Positions 3,626 to 18,121 of a stretch of DNA of 23,892 nt are shown here, one piece after another. The notes under the pieces are model-generated. The model saw nothing but the letters and a program-made list of their open reading frames with translations. It was not told the origin of the DNA and did not search any database. Both the position numbers and the translations under genes were made by a program. How positions within the stretch are numbered: position 1 is the stretch's first letter; each line of letters begins with the position of its first letter. Source of the DNA: Desulfovibrio sp. (GTDB taxonomy: Bacteria; Desulfobacterota; Desulfovibrionia; Desulfovibrionales; Desulfovibrionaceae); the NCBI GenBank assembly GCA_003512875.1, contig DONZ01000137.1, positions 525 through 24,416 of the forward strand, read 5' to 3'.

Positions 3626-3654
3626 TTGACATCTTATATAAGATATGTTATTTC
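3626..3654 (+). promoter_or_regulatory. tctC promoter with shared regulon operator
   Basis: TTGACA at 3626-3631 is followed directly by TCTTATATAAGATATGTTAT (3632-3651). This contains the 14-bp palindrome ATCTTATATAAGAT (3631-3644). The same block stands at 9739-9758 and 14146-14165 behind TTGACA. The palindrome lies between the -35 and the expected -10 (around 3649-3654, weak), so a bound protein would block polymerase. The GntR-type regulator at 8894-9616 is the likely ligand. Confidence 0.75.
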
Positions 3655-3683
3655 TATCTTAACTATCAAATAGGAGGATACTT

Positions 3684-4640
3684 ATGAAAAAGCTTTTCAA
3701 AACATTGCTGTCTGTTGTTTTGGCATTCGCAGTGACTTCCCCTGCTCTTGCGGCGTATCCGGAGAAGCCAGTGAATATGGTTATTGCTTTTACCGCCGGC
3801 GGCTCCAGCGACGTTCAGGCGCGGATCATGCAAAAATACTGGAACAAATACGCCCCGCAGCCTTGGGTTTTCATTTATAAAACAGGTGCGGGCGGCATTA
3901 TCGGCTTCACGGAAATCGCCAACGCCAAAAAAGACGGATACACTGTCGGCGGTTTGAATACTCCCCATATCATTTTGCAGAGCCTTGCGCAAAATGCGCA
4001 GTTCGACCCGCTTACAAGTTATGAGTACCTTTGCCAAGTGGTGAACGACCCGCAGGTCATAGCCGTAAGAAAAGACAGCCCGTATGCGTCTGTCGAAGAA
4101 CTGATTGCGGCGGCGAAAGCCAATCCGCACAAAATCAAGGTCGGTCTTTCCGGGCAATTGAGCGGTCACCATGTGATGTTTCTTTCATTCAAGGAAATGT
4201 TTCCGGAATCCGTGTTTTCTCCGGTATTCTATAAGGGCGCTGCCGACCAGAACGCCGCGCTTCTCGGCGGTGAGATTGATTTCATGTTCGGCAATGTGAA
4301 TGACGTCACCCGCGCATTGGATGAATTGAGAATTTTGGGTGTCGCCGCTGAAGAAAGGAATGCTTTCCTCCCCGATATTCCGACACTCAAAGAACTTGGC
4401 ATTGATTTTGTTTCCGATATCAGGCGCTGTTTTGCCGTGCCGAAGGGTGTCGACCCGGAAATTGTCAAGACATTGCGCGCCGTTTTCAAACAGATATGCG
4501 AAGACCCCGATTATGTTGCCGATATGCTCAAAGCCGGTCAGCCTCATGAATATTTGAGCGGTGAGGATTTTGAAGCGTATATTAAGACGCAGTATGAAAG
4601 CAACCGCGGCATTCTTCAACGGGCAGGACTTATAAAATAA
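3684..4640 (+). CDS. tctC: Tripartite tricarboxylate-type transporter, substrate-binding protein (TctC/Bug family)
   Basis: A 318-residue periplasmic binding protein. It opens with a clear signal peptide (MKKLFKTLLSVVLAFAVTS, cleavage near ALA-A at residue 24-25), then the Bug-family start YPEKPVNMVIAFTAGGSSD. The glycine-rich ligand loop KTGAGGIIGF is about 75-85 residues in, and GDLS-type second-lobe features follow (LLGGEIDFMFGNV). AGGAGG at 3672-3677 sets the start. It heads an operon with tctA, tctB, slcC and comC. Since the two dehydrogenases act on sulfolactate, the likely ligand is sulfolactate, as proposed for the SlcHFG system of sulfolactate degraders. The family binds many carboxylates, so the ligand is inferred from context. 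An intrinsic terminator directly downstream should raise its level above the membrane subunits. Confidence 0.88.
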   Translation: MKKLFKTLLSVVLAFAVTSPALAAYPEKPVNMVIAFTAGGSSDVQARIMQKYWNKYAPQPWVFIYKTGAGGIIGFTEIANAKKDGYTVGGLNTPHIILQSLAQNAQFDPLTSYEYLCQVVNDPQVIAVRKDSPYASVEELIAAAKANPHKIKVGLSGQLSGHHVMFLSFKEMFPESVFSPVFYKGAADQNAALLGGEIDFMFGNVNDVTRALDELRILGVAAEERNAFLPDIPTLKELGIDFVSDIRRCFAVPKGVDPEIVKTLRAVFKQICEDPDYVADMLKAGQPHEYLSGEDFEAYIKTQYESNRGILQRAGLIK

Positions 4641-4644
4641 TACG

Positions 4645-4680
4645 AAAACTCCCCAGTGCTTCCGCGCGGGGAGTTTTTTT
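4645..4680 (+). terminator. Intra-operon intrinsic terminator between tctC and tctA
   Basis: AAAACTCCCC (4645-4654) pairs with GGGGAGTTTT (4668-4677), with a 13-base loop and a seven-T run ending at 4680. It begins five bases after the tctC stop and ends just before the tctA ribosome site. It probably acts as a partial terminator or a 3' mRNA stabiliser for tctC. Confidence 0.88.
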
Positions 4681-4694
4681 ACCGGAGCTATGCA

Positions 4695-6212
4695 ATGACT
4701 GAATTTATTGGATATGCACTTATTGAAATGATACAGCCGTTCAATATCTTTTTGATGATTATCGGATTGACGGGGGGTATCGTCGTAGGGGCTTTGCCGG
4801 GGCTGACGGCAACCATGGGGGTAGCGCTGATGGTTCCTGTCACATTTGCGATGGACCCTGCAAGCGGGCTCATAATGCTTGGCGCCATTTATATCGGAGG
4901 CATATACGGCGGGGCTAATTCCGCAATTTTAATTTGTACTCCCGGAACTCCCAGTTCCGTTGTCACAACGTTTGACGGATGGCCGATGTGCCAAAACGGG
5001 AATGCCGATGACGCCTTGCACGTGTCCCTTATTTCTTCTGCTTTCGGAACGATAGTCGGGGCGTTTTTCCTGTTGTTTTTCTCCGCTTCCTTTGCCCGTT
5101 TCGCTTTGCGGTTCGGGGGACCGGAAAATTTTTGGCTTTGCCTTTTCGGTTTGTCGACCATTGCGGTCATGAGTATCGATAACATGGGAAAAGGAATAGT
5201 TTCCGGAGCGATAGGAATGCTTGTGTCCACTGTCGGGCTTGATCCCAATACGGGCAATGTGCGCTTCACCTTCGGCTATTATCCTCTCATTCAGGGAATA
5301 TCCGTCATCCCCTGCATGATAGGGCTTTTCTCTTTTTCACAGGTATTGCAGCTTTTGAGTTCCTCAAAAGAATACATTGCCGAATGCAAACCGAGCAGCG
5401 GCTCGTTTACGCGGATGTTCAAATACCTTTTTGTAAAATGCAAGACAAATTTGGTGCGCTCTTCCCTTATCGGGACGTTTGTGGGCATGCTTCCCGGTGC
5501 CGGGGGGGAAATCGCATCCATTATTTCTTATAATGAAGCGAAACGCTGGGATAAGGAACCTGAAAAATACGGCAAGGGGTGCGTTGAAGGTATTGCCGCT
5601 TCCGAGAGCGCGAACAATGCGGTTATTGGCGGTTCGCTCATTCCCATGCTGACTTTGGGCATTCCCGGAAGCGCTGTCGCCGCGGTTATCTTGGGAGCGC
5701 TGCTGACTCATGGCATACAGCCCGGTTTTAAAATATTCACGACTTCCGGCGAATTGGCTTATGCTTTTATTCTTTCACAGTTTTTTGTCGCGCTGCTCAT
5801 GCTTCCCATCGGGTATGTCCTATGCAAATTCATGGCGAAACTTCTTTGTTTTCCTTTAACAAACGTTGCTGTCGCCATTGTCATTTTATCGTTTATCGGC
5901 GCATACGCCATCGCCAACAGCATGGTCGATATTTGGATTGTCTTCGTGTTTGGTATTTTGGGTTTTGTATCCAATAAGATCGGGCTTGATACCGGAGCCA
6001 TGGCGCTTGGCGTCATTCTGGGTCCGATGATAGAGGAGAATCTCGGCAAATGCGTTGACTTGGCCAATGCCCACAGCGGAGGTCTGCTTGGAGTCATGCT
6101 TGAAGGTTCCATTTCGAAGATTTTGATTTTCGCCCTTGCGGTATCTTTGCTTACGCCTTTTTATATCAACCATAAAAAAAGAAAGAGCGGCAGGCGTGCC
6201 GGGGAGGATTGA
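4695..6212 (+). CDS. tctA: Tripartite tricarboxylate-type transporter, large membrane subunit (TctA)
   Basis: A 505-residue polytopic membrane protein of the usual TctA length. Family signatures are plain: GALPGLTATMGVALMVPVTF near the N-terminus, then GGANSAILICTPGTPSSVVT with the DGWPM turn. In the second half are GMLPGAGGEIASIISYNEAK, EGIAASESANNAVIGGSLIP and MLTLGIPGSA, the paired halves of the TctA fold. It forms the cation-coupled translocation channel with TctB. The start at 4695 follows GGAG (4684-4687) at seven bases; an in-frame start at 4656 lies inside the terminator hairpin and is rejected. The tctB gene starts two bases after its stop. The substrate is inferred to be sulfolactate or a close C3 sulfonate. 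Confidence 0.92.
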   Translation: MTEFIGYALIEMIQPFNIFLMIIGLTGGIVVGALPGLTATMGVALMVPVTFAMDPASGLIMLGAIYIGGIYGGANSAILICTPGTPSSVVTTFDGWPMCQNGNADDALHVSLISSAFGTIVGAFFLLFFSASFARFALRFGGPENFWLCLFGLSTIAVMSIDNMGKGIVSGAIGMLVSTVGLDPNTGNVRFTFGYYPLIQGISVIPCMIGLFSFSQVLQLLSSSKEYIAECKPSSGSFTRMFKYLFVKCKTNLVRSSLIGTFVGMLPGAGGEIASIISYNEAKRWDKEPEKYGKGCVEGIAASESANNAVIGGSLIPMLTLGIPGSAVAAVILGALLTHGIQPGFKIFTTSGELAYAFILSQFFVALLMLPIGYVLCKFMAKLLCFPLTNVAVAIVILSFIGAYAIANSMVDIWIVFVFGILGFVSNKIGLDTGAMALGVILGPMIEENLGKCVDLANAHSGGLLGVMLEGSISKILIFALAVSLLTPFYINHKKRKSGRRAGED

Positions 6213-6213
6213 T

Positions 6214-6687
6214 ATGCCGAAATATTTGCAGGACTTATGTTCAGGTGCCGTATTTATTTGCATTGGTTTGGCTTTCGGTTTGCAATACAGCCAGTTGAGC
6301 GGTGTGAGCCGGATTTTTCCGGAAGCCTTGATTTCTCTTATTTCCTTAGGCGGTTTTTATTATTTCATAAAAGGTTTTGTCCGCAGAGGAAAGGAAAAAG
6401 CCGAAGGAACAGGGGAAGCGGAATCAAAAGAGCGGTTTTTGTTCATGCGTTTGGTATATATTCTTTTTTCCGCCCTTATGCTTATTTTTCTTATTGAATA
6501 TTTGGGATTTTACAGCGCAAGTTTTCTTTTTCTTTTTATTTCCCACGCATATTTGGCGAATAAGAAAAACGGAAAAATGAAAACAATGCGCGACGGTCTT
6601 GTTTTCAGTCTCGCTTTTGTTTCTGCCGTATGGTTCTTGTTTCATTATGTGCTGTTGGTGCCGACACCCGCCGGTTTTTTGATTTGA
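6214..6687 (+). CDS. tctB: Tripartite tricarboxylate-type transporter, small membrane subunit (TctB)
   Basis: A 157-residue protein with four hydrophobic segments, at about residues 8-27, 31-50, 75-97 and 124-145, the arrangement of TctB. A charged loop rich in Lys/Glu (RRGKEKAEGTGEAESKE) lies between the second and third segments. TctB sequences are poorly conserved, so size, topology and position after tctA carry the call. GGGGAGG at 6201-6207, inside the end of tctA, is its ribosome site and points to coupled translation. The downstream slcC begins 20 bases after the stop. Confidence 0.85.
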   Translation: MPKYLQDLCSGAVFICIGLAFGLQYSQLSGVSRIFPEALISLISLGGFYYFIKGFVRRGKEKAEGTGEAESKERFLFMRLVYILFSALMLIFLIEYLGFYSASFLFLFISHAYLANKKNGKMKTMRDGLVFSLAFVSAVWFLFHYVLLVPTPAGFLI

Positions 6688-6707
6688 TCATTGCAGAGAG
6701 GTTTGCC

Positions 6708-7640
6708 ATGAAAAAAATTGTTATTTCGGAATTTATGGATGAATCCGCCGTTCTTGAATTGTCAAGAAACAATACCGTTGTTTATGACAAAAACTTGTTC
6801 CAGAACCGTGGAGAATTACTGCACGTTTGCAAAGACGCAGATGCGGTTATCGTAAGGAATAAAACGCAGGTGGACCAGGAACTTCTGTCTGCCGCGGTGA
6901 AAATGAAAGCTGTGGGCAGGCTTGGGGTCGGGCTTGATAATATTGATACGGAATATTGTGAAAAACATGCGGTTTCGGTTATCACGGCAAGGGGAGCGAA
7001 CAGCATTTCCGTTGCCGAATATGTTTTGACGGGTATTTTTTATTTTTCAAGACAATATTATCTGACAACGCAGGTAAAAAGCGGGGCATGGCCGCGGGAA
7101 CGGATGATCGGTTCCGAAGCGGCGGGAAAAACTTTGGGGATTATCGGCTTTGGAGATATAGCCAGAACCGTTGCGAAAAAAGCAAGCTGCCTGGATATGG
7201 ATATTGTTGCCTATGACCCTTATCTCAAAGAAACGGATGCCGTTTGGAAAGAATACGGCGGCAGCGCGGTTAAGCCCTGCTCTTTGGAAGAAGTGCTGCG
7301 GCAGGCGGATGTTGTGAGCCTGCATATTCCTCTCTGTCCCGAAACAAAAAATCTTTTTACCGCGTCTTTGCTTGAAAAAACGAAGAAGAGCAGTATTTTC
7401 ATCAACAGTTCCCGCGGGGGAGTCGTGGATGAGAATGCTTTGGCGCAATTGCTGAAAAAAGGACATTTCAAAGGTGCTGTATTGGATGTTTTCGCAAATG
7501 AACCCCTTGAGGCGGAAAATCCCTTTATCGGCATTGAAAATTGCTTGCTGACCCCTCATATAGCGGGTGTGACGGAAGAATCGAATGCACGGATAAGTTC
7601 TTTGATAGCCCGTGAAATATCAAAAATTTTACAGGGATGA
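6708..7640 (+). CDS. slcC: D-2-hydroxyacid dehydrogenase family, probable (S)-sulfolactate dehydrogenase
   Basis: A 310-residue member of the SerA-like 2-hydroxyacid dehydrogenase family. The NAD-binding motif LGIIGFGDIA lies at about residue 143. Catalytic Arg236 (in NSSRGG), Glu265 (in ANEPLE) and His284 (in TPHIAG) are all present. It lacks the C-terminal regulatory ACT domain of long SerA proteins. In known sulfolactate degraders the slcC product oxidises (S)-sulfolactate to sulfopyruvate with NAD+, and ComC reduces this to (R)-sulfolactate. The adjacent comC gene and the downstream suyAB make that reading much likelier than phosphoglycerate dehydrogenase. ATG 6708 follows AGAGAGG; a longer frame from 6630 overlaps tctB and is rejected. 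Substrate is inferred from context. Confidence 0.82.
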   Translation: MKKIVISEFMDESAVLELSRNNTVVYDKNLFQNRGELLHVCKDADAVIVRNKTQVDQELLSAAVKMKAVGRLGVGLDNIDTEYCEKHAVSVITARGANSISVAEYVLTGIFYFSRQYYLTTQVKSGAWPRERMIGSEAAGKTLGIIGFGDIARTVAKKASCLDMDIVAYDPYLKETDAVWKEYGGSAVKPCSLEEVLRQADVVSLHIPLCPETKNLFTASLLEKTKKSSIFINSSRGGVVDENALAQLLKKGHFKGAVLDVFANEPLEAENPFIGIENCLLTPHIAGVTEESNARISSLIAREISKILQG

Positions 7641-7644
7641 TGGT

Positions 7645-8619
7645 ATGCTGCTTTCTAAAGATGAGGCATACGCCTTGGCATATAAAAAGTTTTCGGAAAT
7701 TTTGTTTGATGAATATGTTAAACGGACGATTTGCCATTCCCTTACCTTGGCGGAATTGGACAATCTTCCCTCGCACGGTTTTTCCCGCATTCCGTTTTAT
7801 TATGCCCAGGCAAAAAGCGGAAAAATCAATGTTCATGCGTCGATAGGCATGAACATTGCCGATAACGCGGTCATGGTTTCGGCGGATAACGGGTTCGCTT
7901 TTCCCGCGATTTGCAGGGGCTTGGAAAAAGCCGAAGCGCTGCTGAAGCATAACGCCATAGTCCTGCTGACAATTTCCCATTCCCATCATTGCGGTGTCTT
8001 AGGGCAGTATGTGGAACAAATGGCAAGAAAGGGGTTTGTCGGTTTTGCGTTTTCAAACACTCCCAAAGCCATGGCTCCTTTCGGAGGGAATGCGGCTCTT
8101 TTCGGAACAAATCCTTTGGCTTTCGGCTGTCCTTATGGTGAAGATCCCCTTGTTATCGACATGGCATTAAGCAAAGCCGCGCGGGGAAAAATTTTAACTG
8201 CCAAGCAAAAAAAGGAAAGTATTCCCGATGACTGGGCGATAGACAGCTGCGGCAATGCAACCACTGACCCGGAAAAGGCGATGGAAGGAGCCCTTTTGCC
8301 TATTGCAGGGGCAAAAGGTACGGCGCTCGCCCTTTTGGTGGAAATCATGAGCGCAAGTTTGACAGCTTCTTCTTTTTCCTATCAGGCTTCGTCCTTTTTT
8401 GAAGCGGAGGGACCGTATCCGAATATCGGGCAAAGTTTCATTTTTATTGATCCCTGCCGGTTCAATCCTCATTTTCAGACAAGCATTCAAACCCTTTGCG
8501 CAGAGATTTTGAAACAAAAAAACACGCGTATTCCCGGCATGAAACGGTTTAATTGCCGTGCGGAAAAAAACAGGAACGGCATAACGATTTCCGATGACTT
8601 GTATCGAAAGCTGTTATGA
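7645..8619 (+). CDS. comC: LDH2/MDH2 family oxidoreductase, probable (R)-sulfolactate dehydrogenase
   Basis: A 324-residue member of the malate/L-lactate dehydrogenase family with the unusual LDH2 fold, distinct from classical Rossmann lactate dehydrogenases. Recognisable elements are LPSHGFSRIP with the conserved SHG near residue 47, and ISHSHHCGVLGQYVEQMA. Also seen are NTPKAMAPFGG, the GTNPLAFGCP turn, and GAKGTALALLVEIM toward the C-terminus. ComC interconverts sulfopyruvate and (R)-sulfolactate with NAD(P)H. With SlcC it makes the R-isomer that SuyAB needs, a two-dehydrogenase racemisation known from Chromohalobacter. ATG 7645 lies five bases after the slcC stop and follows CAGGG; an upstream GTG at 7612 is less likely. 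It is the last gene of the first operon, and no clear terminator follows. Confidence 0.82.
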   Translation: MLLSKDEAYALAYKKFSEILFDEYVKRTICHSLTLAELDNLPSHGFSRIPFYYAQAKSGKINVHASIGMNIADNAVMVSADNGFAFPAICRGLEKAEALLKHNAIVLLTISHSHHCGVLGQYVEQMARKGFVGFAFSNTPKAMAPFGGNAALFGTNPLAFGCPYGEDPLVIDMALSKAARGKILTAKQKKESIPDDWAIDSCGNATTDPEKAMEGALLPIAGAKGTALALLVEIMSASLTASSFSYQASSFFEAEGPYPNIGQSFIFIDPCRFNPHFQTSIQTLCAEILKQKNTRIPGMKRFNCRAEKNRNGITISDDLYRKLL

Positions 8620-8814
8620 TGTTGCCGCCGCGGACGGCATGTTCGCCTTATGTTTGCCGATTTCGCCGCTTGTCCGGGAATTTGTCCGTTGTTTTCGGCA
8701 AATCGATTCATCGGTATGCGTTTTTTCGGGGTGACATGTCGATTGTTGTCGGTTTTGGCGGAACCGGCATAGTATGAAATTTTTTTATGATATTTTCTGA
8801 AAGATAAAATTTGC

Positions 8815-8893: not shown

Positions 8894-9616
8894 ATGGATA
8901 AGAAGATTTCGTATGTGCCGCTGTATGAACAAGTGAAAAAAGATATTTTAAGAAGAATTATCGCAGGCGATTGGTCGCCGGGAAGTTTTCTTCCCAATGA
9001 ATTTGCATTGGCGGAGCAATATGGCGTGAGCCAGGGGACGCTCCGTAAGGCGTTGAATGAACTGACCGCTGAGAAATATCTTGTCCGCTATCAGGGAAAA
9101 GGCACTGCCGTCGCCGTCGTGGAAGACGATACGGCGTTATTTCCGTTCTTTTTTCTTTCCCGCCGCGATAACAAACACATTCCTCCCGTTTCGCAAATCA
9201 ACGGCATTGCGCGGATTAAGGCTTCTTCGGATATTGCCGGGCATTTGCAGATAAATGAAGGTGACGAAGTCATAGAAATCAAGCGGGTGCGTATTCTTGA
9301 CAACGAATGCGTCATAAACGAGATCGTGTATATTTCGCTGAAAGTGACCGGCGATATTCATTTTGAAGACCAGCAGTTTCCCAATACGCTCTATGTCTAT
9401 TACCAGCATAAATGCGGAATCAGGATACACCGCGCGGTGGAGGATATTGAAGCCGTTCTTCCGACAGCCGACGATGTGAAAAAACTGGGCATTGTGAAAA
9501 CACAGCCTGTGATGAAAATTTCCAGAACCTCTTTTGATGTGCAGGAACGGATAGTCGAATACAGAATCAGCAAGATAAACACGCAAAATTTTGTGTACCG
9601 CGCAAGCTTGCAGTAA
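8894..9616 (+). CDS. GntR family (HutC/UTRA subfamily) transcriptional regulator
   Basis: A 240-residue regulator. Residues about 8-75 form the GntR winged helix: YEQVKKDILRRIIAGDWSPG, LPNEFALAEQYGVSQGTLRKAL, and the wing at KYLVRYQGKGTAV. Residues about 95-235 match a UTRA effector domain, with GDEVIEIKRVRIL, NEIVYISLKV and an ISRTSFDVQERIVEYRI end that would enclose a small ligand. It sits between the slc-type and hps-type operons, is read in the same direction, and has its own promoter and terminator. By position it is the candidate controller of the palindromes before tctC, hpsN and suyA, with sulfolactate, DHPS or an intermediate as inducer. GntR proteins usually repress until ligand binds; both target and ligand are inferred. 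Confidence 0.88.
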   Translation: MDKKISYVPLYEQVKKDILRRIIAGDWSPGSFLPNEFALAEQYGVSQGTLRKALNELTAEKYLVRYQGKGTAVAVVEDDTALFPFFFLSRRDNKHIPPVSQINGIARIKASSDIAGHLQINEGDEVIEIKRVRILDNECVINEIVYISLKVTGDIHFEDQQFPNTLYVYYQHKCGIRIHRAVEDIEAVLPTADDVKKLGIVKTQPVMKISRTSFDVQERIVEYRISKINTQNFVYRASLQ

Positions 9617-9731: not shown

Positions 9732-9761
9732 TTGACAGTCTGATATAAGATATAATATATT
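9732..9761 (+). promoter_or_regulatory. hpsN promoter with shared regulon operator
   Basis: TTGACA at 9732-9737, then one base, then TCTGATATAAGATATAATAT (9739-9758). This is the same block as at 3632 and 14146, with one T-to-G change in the palindrome half. The -10 is TATATT at 9756-9761 (18-base spacing), or TATAAT at 9751-9756 if a short spacer is tolerated. The palindrome occupies the spacer. The hpsN ATG is 45 bases further on. Confidence 0.78.
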
Positions 9762-9806: not shown

Positions 9807-11120
9807 ATGAAATATCTGAAAAAAGCGAACACATCGGCAGAGGAATTCAGCTCCGGAGCCCGTAAAGCCGTTGAGGAAGTTCTTGCGGACATTCGTGCGA
9901 ACGGCGAGGACGCTGTCCGCGAACTTGCGAAAAAATTTGATAAATGGGAGCAGGATTTCGTCCTTTCTCCGGAAAAAAAAGCCAGGCTCATCGCAAGCGT
10001 TCCGGAAACCGTCAAAAAAGACATTCGGTTCGCATACGAGCAAATCACCTGTTTTGCAAAGGCGCAGCGCGAGAGCATTAAAGATTTTGAAATCATGACT
10101 CCCGCAGGTGTCCGCGCGGGACAGAAAGTTATTCCGATGGATGTCGCAGGCTGTTATGTTCCCGGCGGACGGTTCGCCCATACGTGTTCCGCGCTTATGA
10201 GCATTGCGACGGCGAAAGTGGCAGGTGTTCCTTTTGTTGTTGCCGCAACGCCGCCCCGAGGCGACAGTATCGACCCCTCCGTGTGTTATGCCATGGATTT
10301 GGCAGGTGCCGATGTTATTTTGGAAATGGGCGGCATTCAATCCGTCGCCGCTATGGCGTATGGTTTATTCACGGGAAAAAAGGCGAATATCATTGCGGGT
10401 CCAGGCAACGCTTTTGTTGCGGAAGCAAAAGCATTGCTTGCGGGTGAGGGCGTTTGCGGAATAGACCTTTTCGCCGGACCGTCCGAAATTGCGATTTTGG
10501 CTGACGCTCAGGCCGATCCCATGACCGTCGCCATAGATTTGCTTTCACAGGGTGAACACGGAGTTAATTCGCCGGTATGGCTTTTCACCGATTCTGAAGC
10601 GTTGGCTGAACGGGTACTGGAAATCATGCCGAAGCTCATTGCCGATATGCCGGATCCGGCGACACCTCAAAAATCATGGGATGATTATGCGGAAATCATC
10701 GTTTGCGGCAGCAGGGAGGAAATGGTTGAAATCAGCGACCGATACGCACCGGAACATCTTGAAGTGCTTTGTGAAGATACCGACTGGTGGCTGAACCATC
10801 TGACTTCTTACGGCTCGCTGTTCATGGGCGAATTCAGCACCGTCACCCATGGCGACAAATGCGCCGGTCCCAACCATATTTTACCCACAAAGAAAGCGGC
10901 ACATTTCAGCGGCGGCTTGAATGTGCATAAATATCTTAAGATTTGCACCTACCAACAGCCGATGACAATGGAAGCCTGTTGTCTGGTCAGTGAACACGCA
11001 TCCCGTCTGTCCCGTGTAGAGGGCATGGAAGGGCATGCCCGTGCCTGTGATTGGCGCCTTACGAAATACCAGCCTGAAAAGGATTGGGATTTCAAAGTAT
11101 ACAGACATCCGGCATATTGA
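9807..11120 (+). CDS. hpsN: HpsN-type sulfopropanediol (DHPS) 3-dehydrogenase, HisD superfamily
   Basis: A 437-residue histidinol-dehydrogenase-family enzyme. The family metal and catalytic residues are in place: Gln248 and His251 in LLSQGEHG, Glu316 and His317 in APEHLE, Asp350 in HGDKCAGPNHILPT, and His410 in EGMEGHA. The nucleotide loop GPGNAFVAEAKALL precedes them. Against true HisD, there are no his neighbours, and the QGEHGVNSP segment has the form I associate with sulfonate-linked relatives. HpsN oxidises (R)-DHPS to (R)-sulfolactate in two NAD+-dependent steps through the bound aldehyde. Placement with a TRAP transporter and before suyAB supports this strongly. GGGAGG at 9796-9801 sets the start. 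It heads the second operon, and the binding-protein gene starts 13 bases after it. Confidence 0.85.
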   Translation: MKYLKKANTSAEEFSSGARKAVEEVLADIRANGEDAVRELAKKFDKWEQDFVLSPEKKARLIASVPETVKKDIRFAYEQITCFAKAQRESIKDFEIMTPAGVRAGQKVIPMDVAGCYVPGGRFAHTCSALMSIATAKVAGVPFVVAATPPRGDSIDPSVCYAMDLAGADVILEMGGIQSVAAMAYGLFTGKKANIIAGPGNAFVAEAKALLAGEGVCGIDLFAGPSEIAILADAQADPMTVAIDLLSQGEHGVNSPVWLFTDSEALAERVLEIMPKLIADMPDPATPQKSWDDYAEIIVCGSREEMVEISDRYAPEHLEVLCEDTDWWLNHLTSYGSLFMGEFSTVTHGDKCAGPNHILPTKKAAHFSGGLNVHKYLKICTYQQPMTMEACCLVSEHASRLSRVEGMEGHARACDWRLTKYQPEKDWDFKVYRHPAY

Positions 11121-11133: not shown

Positions 11134-12150
11134 ATGAACGGAAAAAAAATCCTTGGCTTGGCGGCGGCGGGTTTTGCGTTTCTCTCGCTCGCAGGTTTTT
11201 CTTTCGGAGCGGAACCGTACACCGGTCCCAAATTGAATCTGCGCCTTGCAAGTCCGAGTCCGCTGGGCAGCAACATGGTGCTCGGTTATGAAAGATTCGT
11301 TGAACTTGTGAAAGAAAAATCCGGCGGTAAAATCAATATCAAACTCATGGCGAACGCCGTGCTCGGCAGCGACAGGTCAACCCTTGAGGCGGCGCAGCGC
11401 GGTACGCTGGATATGGCTTCCTGCTCTTCACCCAACATGGCGTCGTTCGCCCGCGACTATATGGTTTTTGATTTGCCGTATGTCACGTCCCCCGCGTATC
11501 AGCAGCAGCTGTATGATGCTCTTGATAATGGCGAACTTGGCAAACATTTTGAAAAGGTCGCAAACCGTATCGGTTTGACGACCATCATGTTCAGTGAATA
11601 CGGATACCGCAATTTCGCGTTTACTTCTTCCGTAAACGGAATTGACATGATGAAAGAAAAGAAAGTCCGCACTACGGACTCTCCTATCGAAGTGGCGGTC
11701 TCAAGGGCATTGGGCATGATTCCTTCTCCTGTGGCATGGGGTGAGGTGTATACCGCTTTGCAGCAGGGCACGGTGGACGGCGAAGGCAATAACTGGGAAC
11801 ATCTTGTTCTTGCTAAACATATTGAAGTGTTGAAAGGTGCGATGGATTCCCAACACAATTACAGTATGCATATTCTTATGATGAACAAGAAAAAATATGA
11901 CATGTTGGACCCGCAGGCGCAGGCCGTTCTTCGTGAAGCGGCAAAAGAAGCCCTTGCGTATGAAAGAAATCTCACCAAGGAATTAAAAGAAAGGTGTGAA
12001 AAGGAAATGCTCGCCCAAGGCATTGTGATTTACCGCCTTTCCGCTGAGGAGCGTGCCGTTTTGAAAGAAAAAACGCGTGTTGTCTGGGATACGTTCAAAA
12101 ATGAAATTGATCCCGATGTATTGCAAATGGTATTGGATACACAAAAGTAA
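11134..12150 (+). CDS. hpsK: TRAP transporter substrate-binding protein (DctP family), probable DHPS binder
   Basis: A 338-residue periplasmic protein. The N-terminal signal peptide (MNGKKILGLAAAGFAFLSL, cleavage near GFSFG-AE) is followed by LNLRLASPSPLGSNMVLGYERF, typical of DctP proteins. SGGKINIKLMANAVLGSDRSTLEA and the ligand-domain run KVRTTDSPIEVAV...SPVAWGEVYTALQQGTVDGEGN match the family. That run includes the Arg that normally salt-bridges a ligand anion. AAGGAG at 11122-11127 sets the start; a frame from 11035 overlaps hpsN. Its place between hpsN and a fused dctQM points to DHPS as ligand, as for HpsKLM of aerobic DHPS degraders. The symbol is by analogy. A terminator lies directly after the gene. 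Confidence 0.85.
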   Translation: MNGKKILGLAAAGFAFLSLAGFSFGAEPYTGPKLNLRLASPSPLGSNMVLGYERFVELVKEKSGGKINIKLMANAVLGSDRSTLEAAQRGTLDMASCSSPNMASFARDYMVFDLPYVTSPAYQQQLYDALDNGELGKHFEKVANRIGLTTIMFSEYGYRNFAFTSSVNGIDMMKEKKVRTTDSPIEVAVSRALGMIPSPVAWGEVYTALQQGTVDGEGNNWEHLVLAKHIEVLKGAMDSQHNYSMHILMMNKKKYDMLDPQAQAVLREAAKEALAYERNLTKELKERCEKEMLAQGIVIYRLSAEERAVLKEKTRVVWDTFKNEIDPDVLQMVLDTQK

Positions 12151-12168
12151 CGTGTTCGTATTAACATG

Positions 12169-12199
12169 AAAAGCCGTACTTTCATGGTACGGCTTTTTT
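12169..12199 (+). terminator. Intra-operon intrinsic terminator between dctP and dctQM
   Basis: AAAAGCCGTAC (12169-12179) pairs with GTACGGCTTTT (12187-12197) around a TTTCATG loop, with Ts at 12194-12199. It begins 19 bases after the dctP stop and ends before the dctQM ribosome site. It parallels the tctC-tctA terminator and probably lets the binding protein be made in excess. Confidence 0.9.
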
Positions 12200-12213
12200 A
12201 TAAGGGGCAATGT

Positions 12214-13431
12214 ATGTCGATATATGACAGTATTAAAGTTGATTTGGAACATACTTCCGAATGCGCTGCGTTTGCGGATTGTTTGAATGTCAATTTTGAA
12301 AAACCGTTTATGATCATCGGCTTGGTGGGAGCGGTTCTTTTAATTGTTTACCAGTCTCTCGGAAGATATGTTTTTGCAAAATATTTTCCTGCAATGCACA
12401 TTCCTTTTTGGACGGAAGAATTAGCCCGTTTCATGTTCATTTGGTCGATGTATTTCGCAATTCCGCTGACAATCAAACACAGGGAAAACATTCGCGTCGA
12501 TGTCATTTATGATAAATTTTCTCCGAAATGGCGCGGCATATTATGGATGTATTCGGACCTCGCCTTCATTGTCATGGCGGGGAGCATTTTTTATACCAGT
12601 TTGGGCTATATTCACATGCAATGGGAATTTGAACAGGAAACCGCGGCTCTCCGCATTCCGTATTATATTCCTTATGCCATATTGCCTTTGGGGTTCGGGC
12701 TCATGGTCATACGATTGATTCAGGATATTTCTGTTGAATTGAAAACTTCATCGTATGCGGATTTTTTCTCAGCTGTTTTTTTCATTGTTTTGTCCATTGC
12801 TCCCGTATATCTTTTTGAAGAGTTAAATGTTCTTGCCTTATTGTTCGGCTATTTCATTCCGCTGCTTGTTTTGGGGGTTCCCGTTTCCATTTGCCTGGGG
12901 CTTGCGACTCTCGCGACTGTCATCGGTGCGGATTCGCTGCCTATTGATTATATCGCCCAAGTCCCTTTCACGTCTGTCGATTCCCTGCCTATTATGGCAA
13001 TTCCGTTTTTTATCGCCGCCGGTGTCCTTATGGGGGCAGGAGGGCTTTCCAAGCGTTTGCTTGATTTGGCTGATTATTTCATCGGAAGTCTGCCCGGCGG
13101 AATCGCGCTTGTCAGTATCGCCGCGAGCATGTTTTTTGCCGCAATCAGCGGGTCCGGTCCCGCAACGGTTGCGGCTATCGGCATGATTACGATTCCCGCA
13201 ATGATAGAACGCGGATATGACAAGTTTTTTTGCGGGGGTGGTCGTTGCCGCCGCAGGCGCCATCGGAGTGATGATTCCTCCGAGCAATCCCTTTGTCGTC
13301 TACGGGGTGACAGCACAGCAGTCCATCGGATCCCTGTTCATGGGCGGCATTGTTCCCGGTGTTTTAACCGGTCTGGCTTTGATGGTATATACGTATTTCT
13401 ATTCAAAGAAGAAAGGCTGGAAAGGAATTGA
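12214..13431 (+). CDS. TRAP transporter fused DctQM, first part up to the frameshift
   Basis: This frame encodes the small DctQ subunit (residues about 1-180, four membrane spans, with PFWTEELARFMFIWSMYFAIP and IKHRENIRVDVI). It is fused to the first half of the large DctM subunit (from about residue 195: VLGVPVSICLGLA, AIPFFIAAGVLMGAGGL, FFAAISGSGPATVAAIG). After GYDK (residue 337) the frame leaves the family and runs 68 unrelated, Arg- and Ser-rich codons to a stop. The DctM sequence continues in the next frame. One T fewer in the T7 run at 13225-13231 would restore a 626-residue protein reading GYDK-FFAGVVVAAAG. Start 12214 follows AAGGGG; the in-frame ATG at 12166 lies before the terminator hairpin. 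A single-base sequencing error, a real mutation or slippage are all possible. Confidence 0.85.
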   Translation: MSIYDSIKVDLEHTSECAAFADCLNVNFEKPFMIIGLVGAVLLIVYQSLGRYVFAKYFPAMHIPFWTEELARFMFIWSMYFAIPLTIKHRENIRVDVIYDKFSPKWRGILWMYSDLAFIVMAGSIFYTSLGYIHMQWEFEQETAALRIPYYIPYAILPLGFGLMVIRLIQDISVELKTSSYADFFSAVFFIVLSIAPVYLFEELNVLALLFGYFIPLLVLGVPVSICLGLATLATVIGADSLPIDYIAQVPFTSVDSLPIMAIPFFIAAGVLMGAGGLSKRLLDLADYFIGSLPGGIALVSIAASMFFAAISGSGPATVAAIGMITIPAMIERGYDKFFCGGGRCRRRRHRSDDSSEQSLCRLRGDSTAVHRIPVHGRHCSRCFNRSGFDGIYVFLFKEERLERN

Positions 13432-14095
13432 CAGGGAAAAAAGCGTGAAAGAATTGATAAAAGTTCTTTGGGAAGCGAAATGGGCTTTGCTTGTTCCCGT
13501 GATTATTTTGGGGGGCATATACGGCGGTATCATGACGCCGACGGAAGCCGCCGCTGTCGCCGCGTTATACGGCTTGATCGCGGGAATGTTCCTTTACGGC
13601 GAGCTGACTTTTAAACGTCTGGGAGATTATTTGGCGCAGGCCGCCGCTTCTTCCGCCGCAATCATCATATTGATCGCCATGGCGACATTGTTCGGCAATA
13701 TCATGGCGATTGAAAGCGTGCCCGAATCCATTGCGGCGTTTATTTTAAGTGTTTCAAACAACAAAATTGCCGTTTTAATCATTATCAACGCCTTTTTGCT
13801 GTTTGTCGGCACATTCATGGAAGCTCTCGCCGCCATTGTCATTCTTACTCCCGTGTTATTGCCGATCGTGACGCAGCTCGGCGTGAATCCCGTTCATTTC
13901 GGCGTTATCATGGTTGTCAATTTGGCAATCGGTTTCATTACTCCTCCTGTCGGGGTGAATTTGTTTGTTTCCGGCACGATTACCGGCTGCAAGCTTATGG
14001 ATTTGGCTGGTGCCGTTGTTCCGCTGTTGATTTTGATGATTGCGGTATTGCTGCTGATAACCTACGTTCCCGCAATTTGCATGTGTTTGGTTTGA
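13217..14095 (+). CDS. TRAP transporter fused DctQM, second part after the frameshift
   Basis: This frame carries the remaining DctM half: FFAGVVVAAAGAIGVMIPPSNPF, GGIYGGIMTPTEAAAVAALYG, LLFVGTFMEALAAIVILTPVLLPI and GFITPPVGVNLFVSGTITG. These are DctM signatures with about seven membrane spans. It is not an independent gene. The ATG at 13217 has no ribosome site and lies inside the upstream frame, and the first DctM repeat is encoded upstream. Read together with 12214-13224 it completes a fused QM permease of the DHPS uptake system. It ends 133 bases before suyA, with no terminator between, so read-through into suyAB is possible. Confidence 0.82.
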   Translation: MTSFFAGVVVAAAGAIGVMIPPSNPFVVYGVTAQQSIGSLFMGGIVPGVLTGLALMVYTYFYSKKKGWKGIDREKSVKELIKVLWEAKWALLVPVIILGGIYGGIMTPTEAAAVAALYGLIAGMFLYGELTFKRLGDYLAQAAASSAAIIILIAMATLFGNIMAIESVPESIAAFILSVSNNKIAVLIIINAFLLFVGTFMEALAAIVILTPVLLPIVTQLGVNPVHFGVIMVVNLAIGFITPPVGVNLFVSGTITGCKLMDLAGAVVPLLILMIAVLLLITYVPAICMCLV

Positions 14096-14138
14096 TGCGG
14101 AGGAGATTTTTATTTAAAAGTATAAAGTTAAAAAACAG

Positions 14139-14168
14139 TTGACAATCTTATATAAGATATAGTATATA
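14139..14168 (+). promoter_or_regulatory. suyA promoter with shared regulon operator
   Basis: TTGACA at 14139-14144, one base, then TCTTATATAAGATATAGTAT (14146-14165). The 14-bp palindrome ATCTTATATAAGAT lies at 14145-14158. The -10 is TATATA at 14163-14168 with 18-base spacing. It is the third copy of the block seen before tctC and hpsN. Confidence 0.8.
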
Positions 14169-14228
14169 AAAATCATAATTCAATCACAAATTAACAATGC
14201 TTAATTTGAAACACAGAAGGAGGCCATT

Positions 14229-14513
14229 ATGGCGATCGACTTTCTTGTACACGAATCGGGTGACGGTGTCGGTGTGGTAGTTGTTGAAGGCATAAAAGCC
14301 GGTCAGGATTTGACAGGCTGGATTATGCAGGAAGACCAAACTGTTACGATTAAAGTTTTAAATGATATTCCTATCGGGCATAAAATCGCGCTAAAAGATT
14401 TTGCCGTGGGGGATACCGTTTTCAAATACGGTACGGATATCGGCAAAGTTGTCGCTTCCATAAAAAAAGGTGAGCATTTGCACGTGCATAACGTAAAAAC
14501 CAAAAGGTGGTAA
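14229..14513 (+). CDS. suyA: (2R)-sulfolactate sulfo-lyase, small subunit SuyA
   Basis: A 94-residue SAF-domain protein matching the N-terminal domain of altronate dehydratases, the form taken by SuyA. Features are the opening [21 protein letters not shown], the central strand [20 protein letters not shown], the turn [14 protein letters not shown] and the ending [16 protein letters not shown]. The closing GEHLHVHNV is the SAF-domain signature contacting the large-subunit active site. With SuyB it splits (R)-sulfolactate to pyruvate and sulfite in the cytoplasm. GGAGG at 14219-14223 sets the start, and suyB begins five bases after the stop. A free-standing small subunit beside a UxaA-type large subunit also fits an altronate or related dehydratase. 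The slcC, comC and hpsN neighbours decide for SuyA. Confidence 0.9.
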
Positions 14514-14518
14514 TTGAT

Positions 14519-15679
14519 ATGAATAAGACATTTATGGGATATCGCCGTGAAAACGGACGTGTGGGTGTTCGCAACCATGTGATTGTTTTGCCTCTTGATG
14601 ATTTGTCAAACTCCGCTTGTCAGGCGGTTGCGAACAATGTCGCAGGAACGTTGGCGATTGTCCACCCTTACGGGCGTCTTCAATTCGGGGAAGATTTGGA
14701 ACTGCATTTCCGTACTCTGATCGGCGCGGGAAGCAATCCTAACGTGGCGGCTGTCATTGTCATCGGCATTGAAAAGGAATGGACGAACAAGATTGTCGAA
14801 GGTATCGCAAAAACCGGCAAACCTGTTTTCGGTTTCGGTATTGAACAAAACGGCGATTTAAACACTGTCGCTATGGCGAGCCGTAAAGCGAAAGAGCTTG
14901 TCCAATGGGCGACAGGCCTGCAAAGGGTTGAATGCCCTATCCAAGAACTTTGGGTTTCCTGCAAATGCGGCGAATCCGATACGACTTCCGGTATCGCTTC
15001 ATGCCCGACTGTCGGCAATGCGTTCGACAAACTGTGGAAAAACGGCAATACCTTGCTTTTTGGCGAAACAACGGAACTTACCGGCGGAGAACATCTTGTT
15101 GCCGCCCGCTGTAAGAATGAGGAAGTGCGCAGACAATTCCAAGCTTTTTTTGATCGGTATGCCGATATTATCGACAAGCATAAAATCAGCGACCTTTCCG
15201 ATTCCCAGCCTACGAAAGGCAATATCGAAGGCGGGTTGACGACCATTGAGGAAAAAGCCCTCGGCAATATTCAAAAAATCGGTAAAGAGTGCATTGTGGA
15301 AGGCTGTTTGGAAAAGGCGTATTCTCCGACCGGTCCGGGTTTGTGGTTCATGGATTCTTCTTCCGCCGCCGCAGAAATGATCACGCTTGCCGCCGCCGCG
15401 GGCTATGTGGTCCATTTCTTTCCGACGGGACAAGGCAATATCATCGGCAATCCGATATTGCCGGTTATCAAGCTTTCCGCCAATCCCCGCACCGTTCGGA
15501 CCATGTCGGAACATATTGACGTTGATGTTTCCGGTTTGCTGCGCCGTGAGATGAACCTCGATCAGGCAGGCGATTTGCTTCTTGACATGATGGAAAAAAC
15601 CGTCAATGGACGTTTGACTTCCGCTGAAGCCTTGAAACATCAGGAATTTGTCATGACAAGGCTTTATGAAAGCGCATAA
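14519..15679 (+). CDS. suyB: (2R)-sulfolactate sulfo-lyase, large subunit SuyB
   Basis: A 386-residue protein of the UxaA/altronate dehydratase C-terminal family. It opens [31 protein letters not shown], with YxRxDGRxGVRN-type and VLPxDDLSN signatures. Conserved cysteines in [13 protein letters not shown], which likely help hold the metal or cluster, are followed by the family GESDTTSG turn. [17 protein letters not shown] and [24 protein letters not shown] follow. It eliminates sulfite from (R)-sulfolactate, leaving pyruvate. ATG 14519 follows AGGTGG inside the suyA end; a GTG at 14507 is in frame but overlaps suyA. In a sulfite-respiring host the released sulfite is the electron acceptor. 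The reductase is not in this window. Confidence 0.9.
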
Positions 15680-15705
15680 TATGAACGCTTCCGCATAAAA
15701 CTTAA

Positions 15706-15747
15706 AACCAAAAAACAGACGGAACGCATTTCATCTGTTTTTTGGTT
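15706..15747 (+). terminator. Terminator-like hairpin after suyAB
   Basis: AACCAAAAAACAGA (15706-15719) pairs perfectly over 14 bp with TCTGTTTTTTGGTT (15734-15747), with a 14-base loop, starting 27 bases after the suyB stop. There is no separate U-tract after it, but U6 lies within the 3' arm, so termination strength is uncertain. The rest of 15680-15905 shows no gene. Confidence 0.6.
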
Positions 15748-15905
15748 CTGCCCGATAAATACCGCGATAATGTGCGATACCGCATAAAACATTTTTCTTA
15801 TCGTCTGCGGAATTGTAATAAAATCATACAGATCCGTTCATGACATTCGGATGGTTTTTGTATGGAAACACGCTGCCTTGTATGTTTTTATACGTTGGTT
15901 CTTTA

Positions 15906-15925
15906 GTTAATCAGTAAAAATTAAC
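15906..15925. promoter_or_regulatory. Inverted repeat before the MFS gene
   Basis: GTTAAT (15906-15911) and ATTAAC (15920-15925) are inverted with an eight-base gap, ending 19 bases before the MFS start. It could be an operator. The regulon palindrome found before tctC, hpsN and suyA is absent, so the MFS-SDR pair may be controlled differently or by read-through. Confidence 0.3.
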
Positions 15926-15944
15926 AAATACCGAAGGAGTTTTT

Positions 15945-17339
15945 ATGCGTTCAGATACATTGATGATTGAAGCGAATTTGATTTCAAGGCTTGACAGAAT
16001 ACCCATGAATAAATCCATCCTCGGCATTGTTGTTTTATTGGCTTGGTGCTGGGTGATGGAAGCGTTCGATATAGGAATGATAAGCCAGGTTGTTCTTGTT
16101 TTGCGAAAAATTTGGAATCTCGATGCCAATACGCTCGGATTGCTCGGCTCATGCTCAACGGCGGGTGTCGTCATCGGAACGGTCAGCCTTGGTTATTTGA
16201 GTGACAAATACGGAAGAAAGAAAATTTTGTTATGGGGAACATTTGTCTTCACATTTTTTACGCTTATCGGAAGCCTTATGGAAAACCTCGCTTGGATCAT
16301 CACCATGCGTTTTCTCAGCGGCTTGGGAGCCGGAGTGGTTTTTCCTCTGCCGTACCTGATGATTTCCGAACTCGCTCCTGCGAAGAAGCGCGCTGTTCTG
16401 GTGTGTATCTGCAATGCGATTTTAGCGTGCGCTTATTTGCTTCCAACGCTTGCCGGTTCCTGGGCGATTAAGACGTTTTCCCTTGATTATGCATGGAGGG
16501 TTCCGTTCATTATCGGAGGCATCCCCATTGTGACGATTTTGATTTTAAATAAGTATTTGCCGGAATCTCCCCGGTGGCTCATGAAGCGCGGCAGACATGA
16601 CGAAGTGAGAAAACTTGTTGAACGTTTTGAGAAAAGCGCAGGCGTTGAGCACGACGATACGTTTATTGACGAAATTGTGTTAAATTCCCTTAAAAAAATG
16701 GCTGAAGAAGGTTGTGTGAACAACAATGCCTCATGGAAGAACCTATTCATCCCTCCTTATCTTTCCCGTACTTTGGTTTCTTGGGGCATGTTTTCGGCAG
16801 GTCTTATCACATGGTATGTCATCATGGTATATGTTCCCACGATTTTAACCACATACGGCTTTGATCCTTCAAAATCCCTCGTTTTAGGCGGCATCATGGC
16901 TGCTGTCAGCGGCGGCGGAGCCTTATTGATGGGACCGCTGGCAGATAAGTACGGCCGTAAAAGCATTTGGAGTCTTTACGTAATCATCAGCGTTGTCTGC
17001 TTATTCGCAATGACGCTTATCACATCAATGAACACCCTCTTGTTCGTCGGGGCTGTCATGTCATTTTTCGGAGCGGGAATCATGCCTGTGTGCAAGTTAT
17101 ACATTGCCGAACAATATCCGACGGAACTGCGCAGTTTGGGAACCGGGCTCGGTGAGGCTGTTTCGCGTATCATCGGCGGTGTGTTGGCAACATATTATTT
17201 GGCTTACTTCGTATCCGTCGGCGGGGTCAATGCCGTGTTCATCTTTATGGCTGTCACTTTCTTGATTGCCGTCATCGCCCTTCTCGTTTGGGGCAGGGAA
17301 ACCGCAGGCAGAAACGTTGAAGACATCAGCTCTTGTTAA
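15945..17339 (+). CDS. MFS transporter, metabolite:H+ symporter type
   Basis: A 464-residue major facilitator with twelve hydrophobic segments. The two MFS loop signatures are present: GYLSDKYGRKKILL between spans 2 and 3, and GPLADKYGRKSIW between spans 8 and 9. Others are RFLSGLGAGVVFPLPYLMISELAP and the sugar-porter-like LPESPRWLMKRGRHDE before the central loop. GAAGGAG at 15933-15939 sets the start. The gene follows suyAB and is 14 bases from the dehydrogenase gene, so a third route for a sulfonate or a related hydroxyacid is likely, whether import or export. Family is sure, substrate unknown. It might also compensate if the frameshifted dctQM is truly inactive. Confidence 0.85.
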   Translation: MRSDTLMIEANLISRLDRIPMNKSILGIVVLLAWCWVMEAFDIGMISQVVLVLRKIWNLDANTLGLLGSCSTAGVVIGTVSLGYLSDKYGRKKILLWGTFVFTFFTLIGSLMENLAWIITMRFLSGLGAGVVFPLPYLMISELAPAKKRAVLVCICNAILACAYLLPTLAGSWAIKTFSLDYAWRVPFIIGGIPIVTILILNKYLPESPRWLMKRGRHDEVRKLVERFEKSAGVEHDDTFIDEIVLNSLKKMAEEGCVNNNASWKNLFIPPYLSRTLVSWGMFSAGLITWYVIMVYVPTILTTYGFDPSKSLVLGGIMAAVSGGGALLMGPLADKYGRKSIWSLYVIISVVCLFAMTLITSMNTLLFVGAVMSFFGAGIMPVCKLYIAEQYPTELRSLGTGLGEAVSRIIGGVLATYYLAYFVSVGGVNAVFIFMAVTFLIAVIALLVWGRETAGRNVEDISSC

Positions 17340-17353
17340 GGAAGGAGATTGTT

Positions 17354-18121
17354 ATGGATATGGGAACGTTATTTAATCTTTCGGGCAGAACGGCATTGGT
17401 TACCGGCGGCAATTCCGGAATAGGCGAAGCAATGGCGACCGCATTGGGACTTGCCGGCGCAAAAGTTATTTTGGTTGCGCGCAGGGAAAACCGGCTGAAA
17501 GAATCGGTTGCGAAAATGAAAGAAAAAAATATCGATGCCGAAATGCTTCCTGCGGATCTTGCTTCTTGTGAAAATGCCTTGGCTTGCGGCAGGAAGGCAT
17601 TGGAATATTTCGGAACCATTGATATTCTGGTCAATGCCGCGGGCGTTAATTTAAGACAAAAATTCATGGACATCATACCGGAAACATGGCTGCACCAGAT
17701 AAACCTGCATTTAAGCGTTCCGTTTTTCATGGTTCAGGCGTTAGCGCCTGCCATGGCTGCTAAAAAATGGGGCAGAATTATCAATATTGCGTCATTGCAG
17801 TCATACAGGGCTTTTGCCGACAGCGCCCCCTACGGTGCGGGAAAAGGCGGTATAGTTCAGCTCACACGGGCGATAGCCCAGGAATGGTCTGCAAAAGGCA
17901 TTACCTGCAATGCCGTCGGTCCCGGCTTTTTTCCGACGGAATTGACGGAACCCGTATTTAAAAATCCCGAATTGGCAAATAAAAATGCCGGACAAACCTG
18001 CATAGGCAGGAACGGGGAATTGACGGATCTTTATGGCACAACCATTTATTTGGCAAGTGAAGCCTCAGGCTATATTACGGGACAGACCCTCATGGTTGAC
18101 GGCGGTTTTACGGCTAGGTAA
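17354..18121 (+). CDS. Short-chain dehydrogenase/reductase, possible DHPS 2-dehydrogenase
   Basis: A 255-residue classical SDR. It shows the nucleotide motif TGGNSGIGEA near residue 15, the structural NAAG motif (LVNAAGVN), and the catalytic set Ser147, Tyr160 and Lys164 (YGAGK). The family ending SGYITGQTLMVDGGF is present. The acid position after the second strand reads VARREN, an Arg-rich stretch that favours NADP(H), though this is weak evidence. It is translated with the MFS gene (AAGGAG at 17342-17347). In aerobic DHPS pathways two 2-dehydrogenases (HpsO, HpsP) interconvert DHPS isomers through the ketone; this enzyme could supply one such step. A gluconate-5-dehydrogenase-like role on another polyol is an equal alternative. 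Confidence 0.8.
   Translation: MDMGTLFNLSGRTALVTGGNSGIGEAMATALGLAGAKVILVARRENRLKESVAKMKEKNIDAEMLPADLASCENALACGRKALEYFGTIDILVNAAGVNLRQKFMDIIPETWLHQINLHLSVPFFMVQALAPAMAAKKWGRIINIASLQSYRAFADSAPYGAGKGGIVQLTRAIAQEWSAKGITCNAVGPGFFPTELTEPVFKNPELANKNAGQTCIGRNGELTDLYGTTIYLASEASGYITGQTLMVDGGFTAR

Follow-up and report, generated by a model that had tools for sequence, protein, structure and literature searches.

The window analysed here, a stretch of 23,892 nucleotides from a Desulfovibrio sp. metagenome-assembled genome (MAG), probably carries a cluster for organosulfonate respiration from a sulfite respirer of the Taurinivorans type, in which a sulfolactate branch is accompanied by an attached branch for (R)-2,3-dihydroxypropane-1-sulfonate ((R)-DHPS). 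Open reading frames (ORFs) and family searches gave the gene order TctC-TctA-TctB-SlcC-ComC-GntR-HpsN-DctP-DctQM-SuyA-SuyB-MFS-SDR (MFS, major facilitator superfamily; SDR, short-chain dehydrogenase/reductase), all on the plus strand between 3684 and 18121 (Table 1). In the proposed mechanism, TctCAB would import sulfolactate, SlcC would convert (S)-sulfolactate to sulfopyruvate and ComC would convert sulfopyruvate to (R)-sulfolactate, from which SuyAB would form pyruvate and sulfite, the latter being respired by Dsr. The attached branch would consist of the two-step oxidation of (R)-DHPS to (R)-sulfolactate by HpsN, plus HpsO and the MFS permease. Three transcription units, led by slcH, hpsN and suyA, would stand under a single palindromic operator, with the GntR regulator encoded between them as the likely protein to recognise it. 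Since the tripartite ATP-independent periplasmic (TRAP) permease beside hpsN is frame-broken as assembled, the DHPS branch would rely on the MFS permease or be decaying.

The original prediction had named slcC-, comC-, hpsN- and suyAB-type genes, together with a TctABC-type transporter, a TRAP transporter, an MFS permease and an SDR, and all of them lie where it placed them. Its description has to be amended in that the SDR is HpsO-like, the cluster has a GntR regulator at its centre and DctQM is not intact as assembled. Among its gene identities, those of HpsN and SuyAB were borne out by tree, motif and identity, and those of SlcC and ComC are held mainly by synteny; both of its two uptake systems are present as sets of genes, a claim weakened since the TRAP permease is broken.

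The window occupies bases 525-24416 of a 24,416-base contig, and the MAG (G000) comprises 1,733,779 bases in 245 contigs and is 80.21% complete. We compared it with four genomes of the same genus (G001, G002, G003 and G004) and, in a wider survey, with a set of 59 genomes that includes the MAG itself. HpsN of Cupriavidus pinatubonensis (CpHpsN) shares 55% identity with the 9807 protein, which scored 508.6 bits against PDB 8v35 (CpHpsN) and 453 bits against 8wwe ((R)-DHPS dehydrogenase), as compared with at most 232 bits against histidinol dehydrogenases. HpsN is told from HisD by the motif G-R-Y-A/S-H, whose final residue is the zinc-loop histidine (His126 of CpHpsN) (PMC11382572). The window protein reads GRFAH, with F replacing the published Y and the diagnostic His retained. 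In an alignment of 22 hand-picked rows, this His was found in 14, and in none of the six HisD-like rows, the MAG's own HisD included, nor in either of two intermediate rows. The tree of the same rows placed 16 of them, including the window protein and characterised HpsN, opposite the six HisD rows, with a split of 100/100; the intermediate rows (G045 and G028) have Met at the His position, yet lie on the HpsN side. Residues corresponding to Glu318, His319 and Asp352 of CpHpsN are all conserved in the window protein, and are common to HisD-like rows and hence not diagnostic. These results support the 9807 protein as an HpsN homologue, with its catalysis predicted from these similarities.

Both subunits of the sulfolactate sulfo-lyase are close to known SuyAB and far from galactarate and altronate dehydratases. 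SuyB had matches at E ≤0.001 in 19 of the 59 genomes. Ten genomes besides the MAG contain a full-length protein at 66-94% identity, and suyA adjoins it in all nine that were inspected (G039 excluded); one more match reaches 81% over 62 residues only, and the remainder show 29-38%. Against the galactarate dehydratase model SuyB scored 136.5 bits, with a cut-off of 730.85. SuyB had no match in G003 or G004 in the 59-genome search. The G003 contig with hpsN (G003:C45, L035 1-156) ends 15 codons into the start of suyA, after a perfect operator, and for this reason the missing match in G003 is likely to reflect a gap in the assembly. In G001 (G001:C8, L061 10533-13505), a GntR gene (83%) and suyAB (90/94%) are followed by a different TRAP transporter, each unit having its own operator or near-operator.

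SlcC and ComC are candidates, named mainly by synteny. The array TctC-TctA-TctB-SlcC-ComC is repeated in G003:C30 at 67, 77, 39, 52 and 50% identity, respectively. SlcC is 52% identical to its counterpart there and 46% to that of Paracoccus seriniphilus; ComC is 40% identical to the P. seriniphilus gene, and the SlcC- and ComC-like genes of that bacterium adjoin suyAB and a Tct transporter. Matches to ComC at E ≤0.001 were confined to seven of the 59 genomes, the MAG included, the next best being those of G003 (52%) and G032 (44%). SlcC of Chromohalobacter salexigens has been placed in or beside the SERA clade (PMC6303947); the candidate SlcC of the window is a 2-hydroxyacid dehydrogenase of SerA-like type without an ACT domain.

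By its sequence, the SDR is an HpsO orthologue. Aligned with RpHpsO (8wwf), it retains Ser145, Gln147, Tyr158 and Lys162; in RpHpsO, the Ser, Tyr and Lys are catalytic and Gln147 recognises (R)-DHPS, which HpsO converts to sulfolactaldehyde (PMC11131964). The C. pinatubonensis plasmid record labels HpsO an (S)-DHPS 2-dehydrogenase. At E ≤1e-60, HpsO was found in three of the 59 genomes (the MAG, G003 and G004), adjoined in each by an MFS gene of the same family, and G003:C45 carries GntR-hpsN-dctP-dctQM-hpsO-MFS. The window MFS permease is distant from that of C. pinatubonensis, with just 22.5% identity over 191 amino acids. No match to HpsP was obtained in the MAG, in a search that had no positive control and whose query owes the name HpsP to where it sits among the C. 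pinatubonensis genes; because HpsP was not found, coverage of (S)-DHPS is not supported.

The palindrome TCTTATATAAGA is found ahead of slcH, hpsN (with one mismatch) and suyA. These were the only three matches in the whole window at up to one mismatch, with 0.05 expected, and none of 100 shuffles reached three. Position 3626, where the cluster had been taken to start, coincides with the first T of the TTGACA box that precedes slcH. The sites of hpsN and suyA match a longer promoter-plus-operator pattern, which the slcH site does not, even at three mismatches. A consensus promoter scan of the window gave 32 sites (24.7 expected) and included, from the three operator sites, only the hpsN promoter. 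Another shuffle control, with words from five of 13 regions and base content alone kept, is weak, the window-wide operator count being firmer. The palindrome also precedes hpsN in G003, G004 and G021, suyA in G001 and G003, and a TRAP operon in G001; with one mismatch, it precedes MFS-hpsO in G004 and gntR in G001. It was not found at up to one mismatch around suyAB of G021, G023, G043 and G032, stretches that likewise gave no match to a GntR gene of this kind, and single-mismatch palindromes at L033 10709, L087 7150 and L037 13726 look like chance occurrences. Its position before slcH, hpsN and suyA, and its recurrence before hpsN or suyA in relatives, suggest that the three units form one regulon. 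The window GntR protein, presumably the binder of the palindrome, is 83% identical to the GntR adjoining suyAB in G001 and 58-68% to those before hpsN in G003 and G004.

DctQM is a single open frame in G003, G004 and G021, and two overlapping ORFs in the window; with DctP intact and DctQM broken, there is no intact TRAP DctPQM in this assembly. A search with the first part of DctQM as query, in which the best 120 proteins were listed and forms down to 290 amino acids were included, returned an intact near-identical protein (P0001, 636 amino acids, 98%, a cluster of 82 sequences, one contig) and two broken ones, P0002 (466 amino acids, 98%, 22 sequences, 134 contigs) and P0008 (323 amino acids, 98%, 10 sequences, 65 contigs). 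Divergence from the intact form begins at about residue 349 in the window, 464 in P0002 and 253 in P0008. Because of the 98% identity, we infer that the window, P0002 and P0008 belong to one species. At ≥95% identity, a single full-length cluster was seen among the matches listed for HpsN (P0121, 437 amino acids, 88 sequences, 366 contigs) and for TctA (P0241, 507 amino acids, 114 sequences); these best-120 lists end at about 671 and 717 bits, respectively, and short broken forms could lie below. One shorter HpsN form, P0179 (345 amino acids, 91%), was among the matches listed.

The MAG contains dsrA, with 643.9 bits (curated cut-off 392.85), and gave zero matches to Sat in a search that was positive in 5 of 14 control genomes, in keeping with the apparent sulfite respirer of the original prediction. 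A pyruvate formate-lyase (PFL)-like glycyl-radical lyase (PF02901), the type of HpsG, likewise had zero matches, the identical search being positive in 3 of 14 controls. This is the pattern of a Taurinivorans muris-type sulfite respirer, with dsrA present and both Sat and a glycyl-radical sulfo-lyase absent, the absences being weak in a MAG 80% complete. Xsc was above its cut-off in all four other genomes of the genus that were searched; in the MAG, itself incomplete, there was just a below-cut-off match to a thiamine-pyrophosphate enzyme at a contig start. We infer that the MAG represents Taurinivorans or its sister.

An assembly or sequencing error in dctQM, leaving both uptake systems intact, is a serious possibility, if not the one we favour: the break sits at a run of T, the exact window form is not among the 120 best matches listed, and P0001 is intact. 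It is countered by P0002 and P0008, which break at other places, and by the unbroken HpsN, DctP and TctA of the window. We consider with some reserve, as possible rather than probable, that one gut species is losing its DHPS arm stepwise, with the TRAP permease broken at three places across strains, HpsN intact and the sulfolactate arm complete under the common operator. If true, this would account for the presence of HpsN-SuyAB in T. muris, which does not respire DHPS, and it predicts DHPS respiration in strains with intact dctQM. We regard as unlikely a fully active branch, the proposal of the original prediction, in which (R)-DHPS would be respired via HpsN-SuyAB besides sulfolactate, with import by the MFS permease or, in other strains, by an intact TRAP transporter. 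HpsN and HpsO retain the catalytic and specificity residues compared, G003 again has hpsN and hpsO in company with transporters, DctQM is known in an intact form and the 437-residue HpsN cluster has 88 members, all of which would fit such activity; the broken permease in the window and the lack of an HpsP match for the (S) form, in the search without positive control, speak against it.

Very improbably, HpsN and HpsO act on another C3 sulfonate, e.g. in the conversion of cysteinolate (2-amino-3-hydroxypropanesulfonate) to cysteate by an enzyme of the HisD fold. The window HpsN shares a starred clade of the tree with HpsN paralogues whose own stretch also encodes an aminotransferase, CuyA or both, the MAG contains a CuyA homologue, and T. 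muris failed to grow on DHPS. Conversely, the window hpsN adjoins suyAB and an HpsO with the Gln that recognises (R)-DHPS, neither CuyA nor an aminotransferase was matched inside the window, the operator (at up to two mismatches) was not found on the MAG's cuyA contig, and L-cysteate inhibits CpHpsN at the millimolar level only, with a half-maximal inhibitory concentration of 2.4 mM (PMC11382572). Finally, we give virtually no credence to the reading that 9807 is a histidinol dehydrogenase, that 14519 is an altronate dehydratase and that a sulfonate pathway is hence missing. The Pfam names (Histidinol_dh and GD_AH) would suit this, and 9807 exceeds the NCBIfam hisD cut-off (408.9 vs 243.8 bits). 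Nevertheless, an ordinary histidinol dehydrogenase is ruled out by the motif, by the 100/100 tree split, in which 9807 does not group with true HisD, and by the separate HisD of the same genome (G000:C136), which lacks the HpsN-specific His. An altronate dehydratase is ruled out as well: 14519 is only distantly related to galactarate and altronate dehydratases by identity and model scores, and all nine of its ten full-length relatives at 66-94% identity that were inspected adjoin suyA.

Several points weigh against a sulfolactate cluster with an attached DHPS branch. The enzyme functions in this genome are predicted from sequence, absences from a MAG about 80% complete carry little weight, and the dctQM break may be an assembly error. 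ComC was not recovered as a member of its NCBIfam family, its best model (NF040650, L-sulfolactate dehydrogenase) giving 190.9 bits, under the cut-off of 500, and its best PDB matches are malate/lactate and ureidoglycolate dehydrogenases; bacterial ComC may fall outside the NF040650 model. In the window, neither gntR nor the MFS and hpsO genes are preceded by the operator, and only a degenerate form occurs upstream of slcH in G003. In T. muris, hpsN-dctPQM2-suyAB was upregulated on sulfolactate, both transporters were considered putative sulfolactate importers, DctPQM2 thus not being assigned to DHPS, and HpsN, DctMQ2 and SlcG of the Tct system were undetected as proteins (PMC10507020). With these points taken into account, we still hold a sulfolactate cluster with an attached (R)-DHPS branch as the probable reading.

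Table 1. Features of the organosulfonate cluster, in coordinates of the window.
Feature	Position	Strand	Details
TTGACA box and palindromic operator before slcH	3626..3654	+	operator 3632-3643
TctC-type binding protein (slcH)	3684..4640	+	Pfam PF03401, 138.7 bits
TctA-type permease	4656..6212 (ATG at 4695)	+	Pfam PF01970, 470 bits; 77% to TctA of G003:C30
TctB-type small permease	6214..6687	+	position; 39% to TctB-position gene of G003:C30; no NCBIfam match
SlcC, candidate (S)-sulfolactate dehydrogenase	6708..7640	+	SerA-like without ACT domain; synteny
ComC, candidate (R)-sulfolactate dehydrogenase	7612..8619	+	Ldh_2, PF02615, 295.9 bits; synteny
GntR/UTRA regulator, candidate binder of the common palindrome	8894..9616	+	family match
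Promoter TTGACA-18-TATATT (11/12) and operator with one mismatch, before hpsN	9732..9761	+	operator 9739-9750
HpsN, (R)-DHPS 3-dehydrogenase homologue, HisD family	9807..11120	+	identity, motif, tree
DctP-type TRAP binding protein	11134..12150	+	PF03480, 216 bits
Fused DctQM TRAP permease, frame broken near 13225-13231	12166..14095	+	two ORFs, 12166-13431 and 13217-14095
TTGACA box and perfect operator before suyA	14139..14166	+	operator 14146-14157
SuyA, predicted sulfolactate sulfo-lyase small subunit	14229..14513	+	60% to CpSuyA, 90% to G001
SuyB, predicted sulfolactate sulfo-lyase large subunit	14519..15679	+	75% to CpSuyB, 94% to G001
MFS permease encoded next to hpsO, candidate importer of DHPS or sulfolactate	15945..17339	+	family; 70-81% to MFS by hpsO in G003/G004
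HpsO-type SDR, candidate DHPS dehydrogenase	17354..18121	+	60% to CpHpsO; key residues retained

A second HpsN-like paralogue, with 62-69% identity, occurs in L036 (G003:C6), L037 (G021:C4), L038 (G001:C2), L039 (G023:C6), L041 (G043) and L043 (G052). It shares its stretch with an aminotransferase in L036, L037, L038 and L039, and with a CuyA homologue in L037, L041 and L043; a comparable arrangement is found on a plasmid of Pseudomonas sp. MPC6 (L009). In G001, this aminotransferase-linked paralogue is the sole HpsN-like match besides HisD. The paralogues linked to an aminotransferase or CuyA may belong to a cysteinolate or cysteate route. The CuyA homologue of the MAG, with 50% identity, is at G000:C41:2470-3462 (L094, L102).

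Outside the cluster, the left flank (2-2698) holds genes of the phage tail/baseplate type as well as one for a radical SAM protein of phage type, and a tRNA-Thr gene at 3121-3196, to the right of them, is a possible integration boundary. Adjoining the cluster on the minus strand, 18561-20288 encodes a coenzyme A-disulfide-reductase-like protein with a rhodanese domain at its C-terminus, possibly the neighbour that the T. muris authors named SbdP (TAUVO_v1_1430, near dctPQM2 at 1434-1435).

The combination of genes, which the original prediction considered unusual, has a published precedent: the same two adjoining clusters are known from T. muris, and nearly the same set lies on a Paracoccus plasmid. 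The system has thus already been described, likely in the same genus. In T. muris LT0009, slcHFG-slcC-comC neighbours hpsN-dctPQM2-suyAB, and the strain, for which transcriptome and proteome data are available, respired sulfolactate and grew on it, whereas racemic DHPS gave no growth (Ye et al. 2023, PMC10507020). It shares with the window the same genes in the same two adjoining units, a fused DctQM and sulfite respiration by Dsr; Sat and islAB are reported lacking in T. muris, and Sat and PFL-like enzymes were unmatched in the MAG. Unlike in T. muris, DctQM of the window is frame-broken and Xsc does not exceed its cut-off in the incomplete MAG. The main text on T. muris makes no mention of hpsO or the MFS gene (PMC10507020), both of which are in the window, and HpsO is named in the legend of a pathway overview elsewhere (PMC12330013). 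As far as the openly licensed literature shows, the repeated DctQM breaks, the common operator and the identification of the SDR as an HpsO orthologue are new; the passage on a frameshift in PMC12330013 concerns a yihP homologue of Shigella.

In genome surveys, hpsN was found in 16 of 26,640 mouse-gut MAGs (PMC12330013), and it co-occurs with suyB in Thermodesulfobacteria (PMC11382572). DHPS breakdown by HpsN-SuyAB had, as of 2025, been demonstrated in aerobes only (PMC12330013), and for anaerobes this way of respiring DHPS is unproven. In the gut, DHPS derived from plant sulfoquinovose may be a source of H2S. Should HpsN-bearing anaerobes often have a broken importer, should HpsO be present in them and should a single operator link the two arms, the published failure to grow on DHPS could be put to the test in individual strains.

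Plasmid p420573 of P. seriniphilus holds TRAP-hpsN-SDR-ADH-GntR-suyAB-TctC-Tct permease-slcC-comC in one stretch (ADH, alcohol dehydrogenase), the names being given by homology where the record uses general ones. This bacterium has an aerobic life style. It shares with the window nearly the same enzymes, both transporter types and a GntR gene adjoining suyA, with protein identities of 27-66% (SDR, 53%), and differs in that an alcohol dehydrogenase gene occupies the hpsP position, a 'putative sulfate exporter family' protein is encoded and the stretch has no MFS gene. In the window, sulfite respiration would replace the export of the P. seriniphilus set. The hpsN-hpsO-MFS-ADH-suyAB cluster of C. 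pinatubonensis resembles the window in HpsN (55%), HpsO (60%), SuyA (60%) and SuyB (75%), but has no SlcC or ComC match in a stretch of 19 kb, a gene in the hpsP position, a LacI regulator and a distant MFS permease. Desulfovibrio sp. DF1 reportedly uses separate alcohol and aldehyde dehydrogenases instead of HpsN. Its DhpA-SlaB-SuyAB pathway is like that of the window in being an anaerobic respiration of C3 sulfonates that ends in SuyAB (PMC6278857). Related solutions are SlcC/ComC-SuyAB in Paracoccus grown on sulfofucose (PMC12421959) and islAB and hpsGH in rumen Mailhella (PMC13219744).

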